A DNA stretch of 64,000 nt from Shewanella pealeana ATCC 700345 (GTDB taxonomy: Bacteria; Pseudomonadota; Gammaproteobacteria; Enterobacterales; Shewanellaceae). A program made the position numbers and the translations under genes. Of this stretch, positions 5,006 to 15,236 are shown in pieces; position 1 is the stretch's first letter; each line of letters begins with the position of its first letter. The notes under the pieces were generated by a model. That model searched no databases. It saw nothing but the letters and a program-made list of their open reading frames with translations, and had not been told where the DNA came from. Where the stretch lies: the NCBI RefSeq assembly GCF_000018285.1, contig NC_009901.1, forward strand, positions 1,487,001 to 1,551,000, in the 5' to 3' direction.

Positions 5006-5282
5006 TTTTTATCCAGTCAGTTGACATAACAGATTGTTATTTAATCTAGCATAGACAGCAAGATGCGCTAAGTTTTTTTGAGATTTGAAGGCTTGCTCTT
5101 CCATCACAACGAAGACCAATATCAGCTAAGTAAAATGGGTCCACCTTATCTTTGATAGCGCGACGGCTTGCACTTGGTATGATTAAAGGTGTGTTGTATG
5201 GTGAGGTATCTACTCATTAAGATATAGCGTTAAAACAGGCAGATAGCTACATTGGTCACAGAAGCTATAATCTAAACCAATA
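5006..5282. other. intergenic upstream of nnrS
   Basis: Divergent region between kefG and nnrS. It holds no gene I can support; its right end leads into the CRP and NsrR candidate sites annotated separately. Confidence 0.4.
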
Positions 5283-5296
5283 GTGATTGTTATCAC
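5283..5296 (+). promoter_or_regulatory. candidate CRP/FNR site upstream of nnrS-nrfA
   Basis: gtgattgttatcac is a perfect inverted repeat (GTGAT-N4-ATCAC). It matches the CRP half-sites TGTGA/TCACA at 8 of 10 core bases and the FNR site at four of five bases each side. In Shewanella, CRP is the known main activator of anaerobic respiration genes, which fits the respiratory genes downstream. Confidence 0.6.
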
Positions 5297-5329
5297 GAAT
5301 AGGCGCAGATACACTGACGATCAAATTAA

Positions 5330-5352
5330 AAGCTGTATTTTAAATGCGTGTT
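5330..5352 (+). promoter_or_regulatory. candidate NsrR operator
   Basis: An 11-1-11 inverted repeat centred on base 5341 matches the gammaproteobacterial NsrR consensus (two AAnATGCATTT half-sites) at 17 of 20 defined positions. nnrS is a classic NsrR target. The site lies between the CRP site and the nnrS ATG and covers the alternative GTG at 5348, which argues for the ATG at 5366 as the real start. Confidence 0.6.
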
Positions 5353-5365
5353 TGTGGGGTGGACT

Positions 5366-6577
5366 ATGTTGAATATTGACGATCCAAAAGCGACTGAAAA
5401 GATTCCGGCCATTTTTCGCTTGGGATTTAGACCTTTTTTCTTAGGTGGTGCGGCGGTCGCAATGCTATTCGTGCCTCTATGGCTACTCACCTGGTTTTAT
5501 CCGCAATACAGCCTGTTCCAAACCGACTTCTGGGTGAAGGTCGTGCCGTTGTGGTGGCATCCTCATGAGATGTTATTTGGTTTTGCATTGGCGATAGTGT
5601 GTGGGTTCTTGCTGACTTCGGTACAGACATGGACTAATCAGCCCGGAATGAAAGGTTGGGCCTTGGCACTGACTTTCTCTTGCTGGCTATTAGCAAGACT
5701 GACCCTACTGTTACCTGTTTCTATTCCTCTGTGGCTACCAGCATTGCTCGACTCTTTGTTTTTAACCTTCACCGCCATCAAGCTTTGGCGCTGCATTTAT
5801 AAGGTGAAACAGTGGCATAACATCGGCTTTCCTATCATGTTGTTTGTGGCGATGCTGATTAATCTCTTAAGCTATTACGCCCTAAGTGAGAGAGATTTCT
5901 CTCTGAGCCAGAATATTTGGCAAGCTATGTTGTGGTGGTTAGGTCTGCTTATCACCATAGTCGGTGGACGTGTGATTCCCTTCTTTACTGCTATGCGTAT
6001 AAAGGAAACCAAAGCTGAGCCTATCGCACTGCTCGATAGAAGCTTAATCGTTATTATGGTGGCGTTAGTTGTGCAGGCCATTACGCAGTTTATGCCAAAA
6101 GAGCTAGAGCAAGTATTACTCTACCTTGCTGGTGGATTACATTTAGTGCGCTGGTCACGTTGGAAGCCGTTGAAGACACTCAAAGAGCCGATGCTCTGGT
6201 CGCTGCATATCTCATATGTGCTATTACCTATTACATTATTAGCCATGGCTTGGAGCATAGATGACACCATGGCCTATCGCCACCTGTTGCATCTATTTGC
6301 AATCGGCTCGCTCGCAGGGATCTGTCTATCCATGATCTCCAGAGTTTCCCTAGGCCACACCAGCCGCAATATCTACGAAGGGCCTAATATGGCGCTAGCC
6401 TTTGCTTGTTTGCCTATAGCGGCAATCCTGCGTGCTGTGATGCCGATAGTTGCACCAGGTCAATATCAGCTTTGGTTATGGCTAGCGGGAGGACTTTGGT
6501 CGTTAGCCTTTGCAATGTTCGTATTTAATTATGCCTCGATACTGTCTAAACCGCGTATCGATGGCCGACCAGGATAG
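5366..6577 (+). CDS. nnrS: NnrS family haem-copper membrane protein, nitric oxide stress
   Basis: 403 residues from the ATG at 5366, which is preceded by GGGGTGG; an upstream GTG at 5348 lies inside the NsrR-like site and is less likely. The protein has about twelve hydrophobic helices and the NnrS hallmarks IFRLGFRPFFLGGA near the N-terminus, WWHPHEMLFGFA with candidate haem/copper histidines, GGRVIPFFTAMRI, and a C-terminal HLFAIGSLAGICLSMISRVSLGHT. NnrS proteins protect against nitrosative stress. The next gene, nrfA, starts 92 bp downstream with no terminator between, so both are probably one NsrR/CRP-controlled unit. Confidence 0.88.
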   Translation: MLNIDDPKATEKIPAIFRLGFRPFFLGGAAVAMLFVPLWLLTWFYPQYSLFQTDFWVKVVPLWWHPHEMLFGFALAIVCGFLLTSVQTWTNQPGMKGWALALTFSCWLLARLTLLLPVSIPLWLPALLDSLFLTFTAIKLWRCIYKVKQWHNIGFPIMLFVAMLINLLSYYALSERDFSLSQNIWQAMLWWLGLLITIVGGRVIPFFTAMRIKETKAEPIALLDRSLIVIMVALVVQAITQFMPKELEQVLLYLAGGLHLVRWSRWKPLKTLKEPMLWSLHISYVLLPITLLAMAWSIDDTMAYRHLLHLFAIGSLAGICLSMISRVSLGHTSRNIYEGPNMALAFACLPIAAILRAVMPIVAPGQYQLWLWLAGGLWSLAFAMFVFNYASILSKPRIDGRPG

Positions 6578-10063: not shown

Positions 10064-12076
10064 ATGCTAATAAAAACAAAAAGACAGCCACTCAAGCCTT
10101 ATTTGGTTGGAGGCGTCACCGCGCTCTTGTTACTGGGATGTCAACCTGAAACCACATCGCCAAAACTTTCCTCGTCAGTCGCTGATAGTGCGGGCTTTAC
10201 ACCAGCAAGTCCCCACACTATTGAGGCAAACCAGCGCCTCTTGTCTCAGCTTCCCTTCGACGATATTCAAGATTTTGAAGACGCCAATCGAGGCTTTATC
10301 GCTAGAATGCCGGAGCTTAAGGTGCGAGGCACAAATGGTGATATTATTTGGGACAGAACCGCGTACGACTTTATCGAGGGGGATGCACCTAAGAGTGTTA
10401 ACCCTAGCCTTTGGCGCCAAGCGAGCCTTAATAATATCGACGGCTTATTTGAAGTGACCAAGGGCGTCTATCAACTTCGGGGCTTTGACTTGGCCAATAT
10501 GACGGTGATAGAAGGAGAAAAGGGCTGGATCATTGTTGACCCACTTACCACAGCCGAAACGGCGAAGCTTGCCTTCGAGTTTCTCAATAAGACATTGGGA
10601 CCGCGTCCAGTCTCAGCAATTATCTTCACCCATAGCCATATGGATCACTTCGGCGGCGCACTCGGGTTATTAACTGAGGGAGAGGTATTTTCTGAGGCGG
10701 TGGATATCATTGCACCCGCAGGCTTTATGCATGAGGCGACCAGCGAAAACGTTACCGCAGGGACCGCCATGAGTCGCCGCGCCATGTATATGTATGGTAA
10801 GCAATTACCACGTTCGGAGCGTGGCCATATCGATTCGGGTCTTGGTAAAGAGCCCGCATTTGGACAGTTTGGGATCTTGAACCCGACCTTAGTCGTCGAA
10901 CAAGATTCATCTATGATGATTGACGGAGTGCCATTCGAGTTTCAAATCGTTTCTGGCTCAGAAGCGCCTGCCGAATTTACCTTCTACCTGCCTGAGCAGC
11001 AAGCCTATTGCGGCGCTGAACTCGTCTCTAAGAACATGCATAACCTGTATACCCTGCGCGGTGCTAAGGTCAGGGACGCGCTGACTTGGAGTCGTGCAAT
11101 TGATGAGGCATTAATGGCAGAGCGAGACACCAAAGTCTATTTTGGCAGTCACCATTGGCCTATTTGGGGCCAAGAGAGGGTTAATGACTTCTTAGCAAAG
11201 CAGCGAGATACCTATAAGTATATTCATGACCAAGCTGTACGAATGCTCAATGCTGGACTCACCCCAGCAGAAATTGCCGAGCAAATTAAAATGCCACCAT
11301 CGCTTTCTAACACATTTGCTAGTCGAGGCTATTACGGAACGGCTAAGCATAATGCCAAGGCGGTGTACCAAGCCTATTTAGGTTGGTATGACGCCAACCC
11401 TGTTAACTTAGATCCTCTGCCAGCAACCGCAACCGCCATTAAGTATGTTGAGCTGATGGGGGGCGCAGACAAGGTGATAGCGGCAACGCAGATGGCGGTG
11501 GACTCAGGAGAATATCGCTGGGCAGCCGAGCTGATTAATCACTTGGTGGTTAGTGACGCTAATAACGATGAGGCAAAGGCACTACTTGCACATATCTATG
11601 ATCAGTTGGGTTATCAAGCGGAATCCGCGCCGTGGCGAGATGTATATCTAACTGCTGCTTATGAGTTACGCCACGGTAGCCCTGAAAAGGGTATAGATCT
11701 CGCCTCGATGAAGCAGATATTGCTGCAATCTCCCGTTGATAACTTTATGCAGTCGATGGCAACGCGGGTGATTGGGCCTGAGGTTTTTGGTGAGGAGTTT
11801 GTGCTAAATATTCACTTTACCGATCTTAATAAAAATTATGTATTAAGCCTTAATAATGCAGTGTTGCATCATAAGCTCGCCCCTAAGTCTGATAAGGCTA
11901 ACGCGACACTCAACATCAGTCACGAGCTGTTTGTCGACCTCATCATAGGCAATGCAGGAGTGAAAGAAGTACTGTTCTCTGACGAGCTTGAAATTGAGGG
12001 CAGCAAGCTGGATCTGGTGAGTTTCTTCTCCTCTCTCGATAAGCCCAAGGGCGTGTTTAATATTGTGACGCCCTAG
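10064..12076 (+). CDS. alkylsulfatase, metallo-beta-lactamase fold, lipoprotein
   Basis: 670 residues with a lipoprotein signal (LLLLGC, lipid-attached Cys26). The beta-lactamase-fold zinc motif THSHMDH is at about 188-194, and FGSHHWPIWGQ further on carries later metal-site histidines. The middle has the helical dimerisation region of SdsA1-type enzymes (LNAGLTPAEIAEQIKMP), and the C-terminal ~120 residues are an SCP2-like hydrophobic domain (NIHFTDLNKNYVLSLNNAVL). The family hydrolyses alkyl sulfates such as SDS to alcohols. A lipoprotein form places it on a membrane in the periplasm or cell surface. Its upstream neighbour is an AraC regulator. Confidence 0.9.
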   Translation: MLIKTKRQPLKPYLVGGVTALLLLGCQPETTSPKLSSSVADSAGFTPASPHTIEANQRLLSQLPFDDIQDFEDANRGFIARMPELKVRGTNGDIIWDRTAYDFIEGDAPKSVNPSLWRQASLNNIDGLFEVTKGVYQLRGFDLANMTVIEGEKGWIIVDPLTTAETAKLAFEFLNKTLGPRPVSAIIFTHSHMDHFGGALGLLTEGEVFSEAVDIIAPAGFMHEATSENVTAGTAMSRRAMYMYGKQLPRSERGHIDSGLGKEPAFGQFGILNPTLVVEQDSSMMIDGVPFEFQIVSGSEAPAEFTFYLPEQQAYCGAELVSKNMHNLYTLRGAKVRDALTWSRAIDEALMAERDTKVYFGSHHWPIWGQERVNDFLAKQRDTYKYIHDQAVRMLNAGLTPAEIAEQIKMPPSLSNTFASRGYYGTAKHNAKAVYQAYLGWYDANPVNLDPLPATATAIKYVELMGGADKVIAATQMAVDSGEYRWAAELINHLVVSDANNDEAKALLAHIYDQLGYQAESAPWRDVYLTAAYELRHGSPEKGIDLASMKQILLQSPVDNFMQSMATRVIGPEVFGEEFVLNIHFTDLNKNYVLSLNNAVLHHKLAPKSDKANATLNISHELFVDLIIGNAGVKEVLFSDELEIEGSKLDLVSFFSSLDKPKGVFNIVTP

Positions 12077-12369: not shown

Positions 12370-12640
12370 CTGAGTTAGAAAAGCATAACCTTTGGAATTT
12401 GAAGTTATGACTAAAGACCTAACTCGTTTCTGGACAGAAATTAGTAAGAGGAAGGAGTCTAAATCTGGGTCGTAGGATTAGGAAAAGTATGGTAATCAAA
12501 TAAAGTTTACCCTGACCCCACATATCTCAAGTCTTCAAAACTTCGGTCATTCGAGGCGACCCAGATAGTTCCAATAATGATCTTGCCAGCTATCTTCAGA
12601 AATCATATTTCAATCACTTACGTAGGATTCCAATAATTTA
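12370..12640. other. intergenic, no gene seen
   Basis: Region between the palindrome and the attC-like site. It contains aaagtttaccctgacccca, which resembles sequence I associate with ends of REP-type transposase elements, but there is no transposase frame. I cannot support a feature here. Confidence 0.3.
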
Positions 12641-12740
12641 CATAACACCTGCATCAGGTGCGGGAAATGCTTGTCTAAAACTAGCATAGAATGAGTATCA
12701 GACAAGTGTTGAACGTCACTATTTATGCTCATGTTAGAGC
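12641..12740 (-). other. attC-like site after the CBASS genes
   Basis: Read on the minus strand, GCTCTAAC directly after the effector stop opens an imperfect palindrome that ends in GTTATG. Paired blocks occur in order: TAACA/TGTTA, GCAT/ATGC, GTG/CAC, CG/CG and CTTGTCT/AGACAAG. The 100-base length and interrupted stem are like VCR-type attC sites. GCTCTAAC is complementary to the GTTAGAGC at the other end of the same cassette (14,409-14,402), which is what a circular cassette intermediate requires. Confidence 0.6.
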
Positions 12741-12741
12741 G

Positions 12742-13542
12742 CTACTTCGCAATCCTTTCAGCCCATAATGTATTTAGCTTTTCTTGCTCTGATTCAAATA
12801 CTTTTTGCGGAATTAAAGGCGTGTTAGACGTAACAACATTATATTCCGCAAATAATGACAATAAGTTAGGGAACGCCAATTTTGAAGTCCCAAGTTGTTG
12901 ATCGATACTTGTAAGCTTTGACGTTGCGTTACCAAAACTAATAGCTTTATCAATACCATTCCATAAAGGGAAAAACATCAAAAACAAAAGAGCTAATCTA
13001 GGTAAAGAATAGTTGGCATCAGTTGAAGTAACAGATAAACCTGTGACAATTAAAGCAATAATTAACACGGCTAAAAGGATTGAATTTCTAATAGTTCTTT
13101 GTTTACAAGCTTGATATAAGTGCTGCGACCAAAAACAGCTTTCTTGAATTATTTCTACCAACCTTACCTCTGGTGCAGAGTCACTTGTAGCGTAATAATT
13201 ACTATTTTCAAACTTATCAGCTTTTTTGAATTCATCGATTGTTACTTTACTTTTTAAGTAAGCTAAGTCGACAGACATATCTGCCCCATAGGACTTTTGA
13301 ATGATATTCAACCTAATTAGTTCTTGACCAAGTGATTTTTTGTTATTTGTAGTTTTTGATAGAAGCCACGCAGAAAACTCTGAAACTATTGCTGTTAAAG
13401 CAACAATATACAACAAGTTCCCAACCAGAAATATTGACGATGCAGCGCATATAAAGGTTACTAAATGCAGCAAGTTTTCGTATTTTGAATACATCTTTGC
13501 ATTATCTAATACAGCACTTGATAAACTTTGAATACTAGCCAT
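12742..13542 (-). CDS. S-4TM-type membrane effector of a CBASS-like system
   Basis: 266 residues from the ATG at 13542, which overlaps the stop of the CD-NTase gene by eight bases (ATGGCTAG) and has AGG twelve bases upstream. A longer frame upstream is not needed. Hydrophobic segments near the N-terminus (FICAASSIFLVGNLLYIVAL) and the middle (ILLAVLIIALIVTGLSV, LALLFLMFFPLW) frame a soluble region, as in the SMODS-associated S-4TM/SLATT family. Such effectors are proposed to form pores or damage the inner membrane when a cyclic nucleotide binds, killing the infected cell. The tight overlap with the synthase gene supports coupled translation. The family call is from layout and hydropathy plus partner. 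Confidence 0.72.
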   Translation of the reverse strand: MASIQSLSSAVLDNAKMYSKYENLLHLVTFICAASSIFLVGNLLYIVALTAIVSEFSAWLLSKTTNNKKSLGQELIRLNIIQKSYGADMSVDLAYLKSKVTIDEFKKADKFENSNYYATSDSAPEVRLVEIIQESCFWSQHLYQACKQRTIRNSILLAVLIIALIVTGLSVTSTDANYSLPRLALLFLMFFPLWNGIDKAISFGNATSKLTSIDQQLGTSKLAFPNLLSLFAEYNVVTSNTPLIPQKVFESEQEKLNTLWAERIAK

Positions 13543-14386
13543 AAGATGGAAACCTATCTCCAAATAATTTGCCGAATTTCTCAATCGACTCTTTGTCGTT
13601 GTTATTGTAGTGAGCAGACCAAGCATCACGGCTTTTGCCCAATGCAGCTTCAATTCGATTGCTCGCTTCTAGCCTATCAGAATCACTCAGATAATCATCA
13701 ACATAACCGTCGAGTCCAGATGGTGATGGGATGTAGCTTTGTATTTTTGTATGCATGTGCTCAAAAAACTTAAATACATGCCACGCATAATCGCTATAAA
13801 AATTCTCATAGCTTAATGCCATAACTTCGATATGAAAGGATGATAAATATGAAGAATGTTTTCTGTTCCATTCTTTGATCATTTTAATCAGATGAATTTT
13901 TTGTGCAGACGCTTTCTTCATGTTGTTGATATGAATTTTTGGTCTTGTTTCAATCCATGAGTTGTTATTCGCATTTGGTATTTTGTAGCAATAGAAGCTT
14001 CCGTCATCGGAAACTCTGTATGCAGGAACGATATCTACATTAGGCCAGGTTTTAAAATACAACGTCACTGCTTGGCCATTTTTTTTAGCCATACGAGTGT
14101 TATATTCGCTTAATTTATCACGTACTGATTGTAAGAATTCCGTTGGTGACTTATTTTCAGCATGCGCTCCATAATGAAGGACTAACATTACATCCGCATC
14201 TGCAAATCCGCTCAAAGATGTCCCACTAACCAAAGAACCTAAGGGAAAAGCTTCTAATATATTAAACTCTTTACCCAACAGGTTGACTATAGATTTACAT
14301 CGAGACTCTGCAATATCTGCCTGATTGCCTGTAATTGATATCCTTTCGATGAATTTATCGAATGAAACAGCGATTGTGTATGGCAC
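13535..14386 (-). CDS. CD-NTase (SMODS-type cyclic oligonucleotide synthase)
   Basis: 283 residues. The nucleotidyltransferase core is clear: GS at residues 50-51 (FPLGSLVSGTSL), metal ligands D63 and D65 (FADADVMLVL) and a third Asp at 118 (WPNVDIVPAYR). HLIKMIKEWNR and FHIEVMAL fit the helical C-terminal half of the family. In CBASS such enzymes make a cyclic di- or trinucleotide on phage infection. The start is a GTG with AAGGAG eight bases upstream, only 22 bases after the cassette boundary G^TTAGAGC. No cap genes (E1/E2, JAB, HORMA) are present, so it would be a minimal type I system. Product nucleotide is unknown. Confidence 0.85.
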   Translation of the reverse strand: MPYTIAVSFDKFIERISITGNQADIAESRCKSIVNLLGKEFNILEAFPLGSLVSGTSLSGFADADVMLVLHYGAHAENKSPTEFLQSVRDKLSEYNTRMAKKNGQAVTLYFKTWPNVDIVPAYRVSDDGSFYCYKIPNANNNSWIETRPKIHINNMKKASAQKIHLIKMIKEWNRKHSSYLSSFHIEVMALSYENFYSDYAWHVFKFFEHMHTKIQSYIPSPSGLDGYVDDYLSDSDRLEASNRIEAALGKSRDAWSAHYNNNDKESIEKFGKLFGDRFPSYG

Positions 14387-14401
14387 CTGAACTCCTTTTG
14401 C

Positions 14402-14466
14402 GCTCTAACGCCTTAATAACGAACAAAAAACAGCCAGCTTTTTTCTTATTAATTAGCTTGTTAGGC
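14402..14466 (-). other. attC site between two cassettes
   Basis: On the minus strand the element begins GCCTAAC and ends GTTAGAGC, with an inner interrupted stem TTAATAA/TTATTAA and AAAAAA/TTTTTT. Length is 65 bases, within the usual 57-141. GCCTAAC is complementary to the GTTAGGC at the start of the upstream small-ORF cassette (14,791-14,785), and GTTAGAGC starts the CBASS cassette. Confidence 0.7.
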
Positions 14467-14472
14467 ATATGA

Positions 14473-14769
14473 TTACATTTTACCTGTAATATCCAGCCCA
14501 TCTTCAGTGACTCTGCTTGAAGACATTTTTATATCAATTACGGTTCCGTCATCTCTCGTAACAGTTATATCAAACTGCCCAGATTTAAGGTGAGAAAAGA
14601 CCAAGGAACAAACGCCTAAAAAATTTGATATGTTGGCTTCCGAATCAATATGAATACATTTTTCATTATCAGGAAAGTGTAATCTGATAAATTTTGTTTC
14701 AAGTTCTCTGTTAAGTGCTACTACGTCATCTAGTTCTGCGTTGTAGCTTTCAAATTTAATTGTACCGAT
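14473..14769 (-). CDS. small cassette-borne protein, apparent AUC start
   Basis: A 98-codon frame without any ATG, GTG or TTG near its beginning. It opens IGTIKFESYNAELDDVVAL and ends VTEDGLDITGKM. A perfect AGGAG lies six bases before an ATC codon at 14769-14767, and an in-frame TAG lies just upstream, so the reading is either a rare AUC start or an ATG lost by mutation. The protein is soluble, acidic, and alternates strands and helices (FDITVTRDDGTVIDIKMS); I do not recognise the family. The frame lies between two attC-like sites, with its ribosome binding site six bases from the cassette edge. Confidence 0.5.
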   Translation of the reverse strand: MGTIKFESYNAELDDVVALNRELETKFIRLHFPDNEKCIHIDSEANISNFLGVCSLVFSHLKSGQFDITVTRDDGTVIDIKMSSSRVTEDGLDITGKM

Positions 14770-14784
14770 GGGAATCTCCTATAT

Positions 14785-14848
14785 GCCTAACATTTGTATA
14801 GTGCGCATGCTTACGTATTTGGCAAAACGCGCATGCACATTTAACAAA
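14785..14848 (-). other. attC- or attI-like site upstream of the small cassette
   Basis: Minus strand ends ACAAATGTTAGGC, similar to the end of both attC and attI sites. It has arms TTTGT/ACAAA and GTGC/GCAC and a GCATGC-rich inner stem. The distal R-type box is not clear, so this one is weaker. No integrase gene lies beside it. Confidence 0.4.
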
Positions 14849-15236
14849 CCTATTATTTAAGCTTTGCTAAATAAAAGTCATTGATTTATAAGCACTCTAT
14901 CAGAATGGCGTCGGATAAACGAGCATGAAAATTTGCAAAGGAAGCATTGATATTGAGGTTGAACATAAAGGGCGGAGCGAATTAGAGACAGATAATTAAC
15001 TAGCTTGATAGCCATTACTCCGAATCAACAGAATAATGCTTGTCTAACCAAGTGTAGATACGGCTGCGGGCTTCGGTTTCAGGGATGAAACCGCAGAGCG
15101 TATAGGGACATATTCACAGCGTCCCGCAGAAGTATCTGCACATACCCCGCTGGAGGCGATTGATAACTGTGAAGCTAAAATGCACATCAGACTTCACCGT
15201 AGCCCAAACAAAAATACAATTAGCTTATTTCGAAGC
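14849..15236. other. intergenic with possible cassette remnant
   Basis: No coding frame with a start and ribosome binding site. It carries gtctaac at 15043-15049 (R-box-like), and a 13-base sequence at 15,035-15,047 that recurs at 12,666-12,678. Confidence 0.35.

Follow-up and report, generated by a model that had tools for sequence, protein, structure and literature searches.

A two-gene CBASS operon packaged as a single integron cassette behind an attI-like left end in Shewanella pealeana

Anti-phage cassettes are known from both sedentary chromosomal and mobile integrons (Darracq et al., Kieffer et al. and Getz et al., as cited in the available part of PMC12409362). The same part of that article states that defence systems of more than two genes are absent from integrons, which fits the two-gene CBASS described here. 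In Shewanella, CALINs, SALINs or single orphan cassettes, and two-ORF cassettes have been reported (accessible text of PMC9229058), and a CALIN that carries an attI was found in the Shewanella prophage M16-3 (accessible text of PMC9892861, which also gives the core of the Shewanella-type attI as AAACGCGCATGCGCACTAATAAAATGTT). Furthermore, delta-attI cassettes and attG sites have been described (PMC12901181, in the portion at hand). Defence cassettes, CALINs of Shewanella and one attI-bearing CALIN of this genus are therefore established in print. The available text of the open-access literature, PMC12342005 and PMC13253105 among it, yielded no CBASS cassette, no family of elements with the left and right ends described below (LE and RE), and no exchange of CBASS at a single site.

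Here, we describe a locus in a 64-kb stretch of S. pealeana DNA, the whole of which is called the window. Like the anti-phage cassettes of PMC12409362, it contains a small defence system in an attC cassette; unlike them, the system is a predicted CBASS, which the available part of that article does not name among its examples, and the array lacks an integrase and lies at an apparent orphan attI. The locus shares with the CALINs covered in the accessible text of PMC9229058 the presence of attC cassettes far from intI, in genomes with and without intI, as well as two-ORF cassettes, those of S. gelidii JCM 30804 included, but the conserved LE, the RE and the CBASS present here are not described in that text. 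The M16-3 CALIN likewise starts with a Shewanella-type attI and has no integrase of its own, but, in the accessible text of PMC9892861, it is one case, in a prophage that also carries a complete integron, whereas the layout described here recurs genus-wide, with an RE and a longer left sequence. With regard to its genes, the locus resembles two-gene CBASS with a transmembrane effector, as reflected in PADLOC family names, in that a CD-NTase gene is followed by an overlapping membrane-effector gene; it differs from the usual systems of this kind in its carrier, an integron cassette.

The CBASS cassette and its borders

On the minus strand, the locus runs from LE through cassette 1 with its attC, the CBASS cassette with its attC, and 135 bases to RE:

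14791..14963, minus strand: LE, by its sequence an orphan attI of the Shewanella type; core ends ...GCATGCGCACTATACAAATG at the exchange point 14791|14790
14409..14790, minus strand: cassette 1; its open frame, some 100 codons long, ends at 14473
14404..14466, minus strand: attC of cassette 1 (covariance model R1, 42.7 bits, E 1e-7)
12646..14408, minus strand: CBASS cassette, 1763 bp, bounded by two G|TT exchange points
13535..14386, minus strand: predicted CD-NTase (oligonucleotide cyclase), 283 aa, GTG start
12742..13542, minus strand: predicted 4TM-type CBASS effector, 266 aa, start overlapping the CD-NTase stop by 8 nt
12641..12739, minus strand: attC of the CBASS cassette (R1, 45.8 bits, E 1.9e-8)
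12511..12645, minus strand: stretch of 135 bases between the last exchange point and RE, with no informative match
12421..12510, minus strand: RE, in a variant form that departs from the common one in its first bases

The flanking genes end at 12076 and 15313; from the look of the proteins, we take the former to be alkylsulfatase-like, of the MBL type, and the latter to be acyl-CoA dehydrogenase-like. The DNA flanking the LE-RE element is rich in repeats.

An earlier note, made from the window alone, had proposed that a CBASS-like operon is packaged here as a single integron cassette. This observation is confirmed, given that attC matches and homology borders coincide with the gene pair. Because Rfam, at gathering thresholds, matched nothing in the window, we built our own attC covariance model (R1) from 23 attC sites of other loci, none from the window; whole-genome Shewanella loci supplied 22 of these sites, and a Ferrimonas contig the remaining one. 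The structure obtained with RNAalifold has 9 pairs, and all five L-box pairs show compensatory changes. Applied to both strands of the 64-kb window, R1 gave two matches with E<1e-6, at 12641-12739 and 14404-14466, with the next best at E 0.6, on an E-value calibration that is rough; the attC-like palindromes that the note had placed around the gene pair, and had made dependent on such matches, are thus borne out. As a positive control, R1 was applied to 12 intI-linked stretches, where it detected 79 sites (E<=0.01), with at least one site in every stretch, although a few of these, in L184 and L189, are R1 training sequences. Fold energy alone is weak evidence for attC and supports only the larger site: the z-score is -2.06 for the 99-nt attC and +0.26, that is, not unusual, for the 63-nt attC.

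On the minus strand, the border of the CBASS cassette reads ...GGCG|TTAGAGCGCAAAAGGAGTTCAG-GTG, which puts the start codon 22 nt from the exchange point, the distance given in the note. The first bases of the cassette, GTTAGAGCGC, are the exact complement of GCGCTCTAAC at its own end (10/10 bases), so the complementarity to the R-box that had been claimed holds as well. Cassette 1 follows the same rule, its start being complementary to its own R'' at 9/9 bases. Together with the pairing of R'' with R' and of L'' with L' within attC, this complementarity points to an integron gene cassette. Among LE-type loci, a match of 8 or 9 bases between the start of the first cassette and R'' was found in 12 of 22, a count that takes in the window and S. 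gelidii and includes two loci that are identical copies; an additional match in L056, at 3.7 kb, is probably due to chance. The frame in cassette 1 has no ATG, GTG or TTG start and no family match. This frame (14473-14790) has a good ribosome-binding site, and an ATT or ATC start is possible.

The CD-NTase matches the PADLOC Cyclase (E 7.5e-97) and Pfam SMODS (E 2.5e-18) families and scores 153 bits with NCBIfam CBASS_cyclase_b, under the cut-off of 200. The GS and DxD...D residues are catalytic in CD-NTases, and G50 S51, D63, D65 and D118 are conserved in all three aligned sequences. The effector matches PADLOC 4TM (E 3.1e-21), with nothing above the cut-off in Pfam or NCBIfam and no sequence match to solved structures at E<=1. 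A predicted CD-NTase and a predicted effector gene in the same operon argue for membership in CBASS, presumably 'type I', the name that we take to apply to two-gene systems with a transmembrane effector. The two ORFs are coupled, as the note had it, through the 8-nt overlap. Both genes are under purifying selection, with dN/dS of 0.08 and 0.12 at dS 0.41 between the window and S. gelidii, and therefore have been kept. The cyclase is rare: at E<=1e-30, it was found only in the S. pealeana genome among 394 genomes of the order, S. gelidii having come from another collection.

The homology block shared by the window and S. gelidii spans 1678 bp at 90.5% identity; it begins with the G of the exchange point and stops one base beyond the AAC of R''. 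In S. gelidii, the cassette lies directly behind LE; in the window, it lies behind another cassette; and, on a Ferrimonas contig, a truncated copy lies directly behind a third attC (one of the 23 training sequences of R1). The same cassette border is thus preceded by three different sequences, and these contexts, together with the homology borders, suggest that the cassette moves as a unit with G|TT borders. The note had also held that relatives with the genes but without the palindromes would count against a cassette. The only such relative is the distant one from Rhodoferax (46% identity to the window pair), where R1 found no attC at E<=0.01, whereas S. gelidii, in which attC follows the gene pair, and Ferrimonas (91-93%) both have attC. 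The attC bodies of the window (12641-12739) and S. gelidii (L006 2695-2794), which lie beyond the shared block, are only 51% identical, no closer than other attC bodies compared (median 56%), and so the body seems to have been exchanged exactly at R''. Ordinary cassette exchange does not account for such a swap, which counts against the explanation that we prefer below.

Left and right ends of the array

The LE core resembles the published Shewanella attI, and its sequence supports assignment to the attI of this genus. The LE in the window is 82-84% identical to other LE copies over 167-173 bp. At 9 of 30 intI loci, the neighbouring attI DNA is 93-100% identical to the right-hand 25-32 bases of the LE copies; of the remaining loci, four resemble LE in the other half site alone, and 17 gave nothing at E<=1e-3. 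By eye, and relative to most of the attI regions that match, LE is about 90 bp shorter between the two half sites and has no intI; one intI-linked attI (L100) is also shortened. The LE copies have a longer common left part, not seen beside intI, and LE is found as a conserved sequence of ~170-270 bp at many unlinked places. LE-like DNA was detected in 98 of the 129 Shewanella genomes at E<=1e-3, with many weak matches, and in 43 at E<=1e-15. For L040-L059, R1 places an attC (E<=0.1) after LE and in its orientation in 13 of the 20 loci, four of these being sources of training sequences. A promoter scan showed no excess (7 found vs 11.0 expected). Three LE copies (L059, L022, L025) and two intI loci (L098, L100) are interrupted at an identical point of the attI core by what appears to be one IS element, presumably of the IS110 type.

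The common form of RE starts at the G|TTACC of the last attC and ends near TTTCTGTCCAAAAATG. Over 90 bp, the RE of the window has 81% identity to the corresponding site of the relative G116, and over 88 bp it has 78% identity to plasmid pS18501; it also matches the RE of L041 at 21/21 bases. In 13 of 23 LE loci, RE follows LE in the same orientation, and two of the remaining ten have weak matches; the layout of LE, cassettes and RE recurs in Shewanella. By contrast, RE is absent from 11 of the 12 stretches beside intI, and the twelfth has a single 33-bp match (E 0.001). Scored for terminal inverted repeats, 14 LE-RE pairs average 13.5 vs 11.8 (sd 2.1) in shuffles, which is not significant. A fused LE|RE query, with six candidates scored per genome, matched 110 of the 129 genomes, and all matches listed cover one half only, that is, no empty platform was found among them; the flank of L066 is conserved in 127 of the 129 genomes, with no empty site.

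Several observations concern individual ends. The RE of the window (12480-12520) begins with GTGGGGTCAGGGTAAACTTTA rather than the usual core, and a similar stretch precedes RE in L145 and, altered, in L009; the GTGGGGTCAGGGTAAACTTTA stretch may be a transposase-linked repeat. On pS18501, a conjugative plasmid of S. baltica (L009), an LE-RE unit occupies positions 5068-6277, downstream of a serine resolvase gene, and related plasmids carry different DNA from this point onward. RE-type ends first seen by eye in pS19501 and pSBAL11702 are not claimed here because the search gave 20 bases at E 0.025 in one case and nothing at E<=0.05 in the other. In S. pealeana itself, two stretches (G000:C1:2295768-2301000 and 4221124-4226356; L042 and L043), each with LE, attC sites and RE, are identical over at least 5233 bp; given that the duplication continues beyond the point where the fetched DNA stops, these copies give no element borders.

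Contents of the site in relatives and at other left ends

For the chromosomal site of the window, 20 relatives were fetched, 10 of which had both flanking genes on the stretch. The note had suggested a search for empty sites, and one relative (G102, 95% identical in the neighbouring gene) indeed is free of the element, with 367 bp and neither LE nor RE between the flanking genes, but, with some of the flanking repeats gone too, it does not qualify as a base-exact empty site. In another relative (G100), an LE that is 88% identical to that of the window over 267 bp is followed by a CD-NTase gene (PDLC00794, E 6e-144), a 2TM effector gene (PDLC00702, E 6e-89) that overlaps the CD-NTase stop, an attC after the gene pair (29.3 bits, E 7.5e-4) and an RE-like stretch whose match to the RE of the window is weak, 20 bases only, at E 0.002. 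The cassette start agrees with R'' at 7/8 bases. At the chromosomal site of the window, G100 thus carries another two-gene CBASS, in the form of one cassette with an attC at its end. In the other eight relatives, the contents differ from these or are reduced; five ORFs, taken from five of the eight, gave 0/5 matches to PADLOC, and, at this site, only the contents of the window and G100 match PADLOC families.

PADLOC matches at E<=1e-10 were obtained for at least 10 of the 33 proteins encoded by first cassettes behind LE copies (8 of 31 loci), in two cases over part of the model; eleven of the 33 were scanned only in a tally that lists 25 of 121 families. This count leaves out the window itself and L022, L027, L032, L036, L043, L044, L053 and L059, on the grounds of no usable first gene, an IS at attI, near-duplication or a contig end. 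Because there is no baseline, we do not claim enrichment in the sense of a 'defence hotspot'. The first cassettes of L034, L037, L055 and L056 include a HamC-type protein, a DRT8 reverse transcriptase, a PD-T4-7-type protein and a TIR effector, according to PADLOC.

Integrase and the origin of the array

In a search with the TIGR02249 profile, no full IntI was found in the S. pealeana genome at E<=1e-60, so the locus is not a complete integron with intI beside attI, and the absence of a nearby integrase reported in the note is upheld. The genome has five partial IntI matches under the curated cut-off; all 14 control genomes likewise have matches of this sub-threshold kind. Of the five, one (G000:C1:3199314-3199622), which aligns 104 residues within an open frame of 125 aa with the N-terminal portion of the IntI profile, is possibly a relict integrase. 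The same genome contains 17 attC matches at E<=0.1, including two pairs in duplicated DNA, and nine LE-like matches at E<=1e-3. Across Shewanella, IntI is present at E<=1e-60 in 79 of the 129 genomes, 77 of them above the curated cut-off, and, among the 43 genomes with a strong LE, 24 have IntI at this threshold and 19 do not. With two attC sites in the window and no neighbouring integrase, the locus is a CALIN; the description 'CALIN-like' in the note is to this extent accurate, but it is incomplete because the array starts at an orphan attI and has a conserved RE downstream.

Comparison of the loci establishes, at the sequence level, the cassette borders, the two attC sites, the coupled genes under selection, the three upstream neighbours of the cassette and the differing contents of the site. 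The explanation that we favour with good confidence is that the two-gene CBASS is one integron cassette in an integrase-less platform, consisting of an orphan attI (LE), cassettes and RE, on which IntI would act in trans. The integrase would be supplied by another replicon or by a formerly resident integron, and cassettes would enter and leave the LE copies of attI through its action. A promoter in or before LE could read through the cassettes, a step to which the promoter scan lends no support. Judging from the gene families, the CD-NTase would respond to phage infection by making a cyclic nucleotide; this would activate the membrane effector, and the infected cell would be stopped. Apart from the attC body swap, we count against the platform that no empty LE|RE was found among the matches listed, that RE occurs in only 13 of 23 LE loci, that the RE of G100 is weak, that 135 bases separate the last attC from RE, and that promoters are not in excess.

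A less likely alternative is that an ordinary Shewanella integron lost intI and is decaying as a CALIN, the other LE copies resulting from independent losses or rearrangements. This would agree with the genome of S. pealeana, which has the single N-terminal match in place of a full IntI, and with the LE copies being shorter than most intI-linked attI regions. Against it, the LE copies have in common a longer left sequence that was not seen beside intI and an RE that is missing from 11 of the 12 intI-bearing stretches; in addition, IntI still exists elsewhere in 24 of the 43 genomes with strong LE, and both CBASS genes are under purifying selection. It is much less probable that cassettes were inserted at scattered secondary sites of the attG type, an insertion named in the available part of PMC12901181, with LE being a chance or local resemblance, because LE is conserved over ~170-270 bp at many unlinked places and its core is that of attI. 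Finally, the idea that the palindromes are unrelated intergenic repeats of Shewanella around an ordinary CBASS operon, for which the repeat-rich flanks and the ordinary fold energy of the 63-nt attC could be cited, can practically be dismissed given the covariance matches at both gene borders (next E 0.6), the homology borders at G|TT and R'', and the 10/10 complementarity of start and end.

The platform with an integrase acting in trans thus remains our preferred explanation; the platform itself is the larger result, while the action in trans and a possible mobility of the element are what we infer. A broader proposal, which we put forward tentatively and to which we would give somewhat less than an even chance, is that Shewanella harbours a dispersed mobile family of integrase-less mini-integrons that trade cassettes via an integrase in trans and serve as plug-in immunity sites, one of which held two different CBASS operons in two species; that the search did not bear out the right ends in further plasmids counts slightly against this proposal.

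The locus shows that a complete immune system of the signalling type can be compact enough to move within a single cassette. Arrays that lack an integrase need not be debris, as this case suggests, but can be organised landing sites that have an attI of their own. If IntI does act in trans, a distant integrase would fill attI copies elsewhere in the chromosome or on a plasmid, the origin of CALINs would become directly testable, and a single site could swap one defence system for another.
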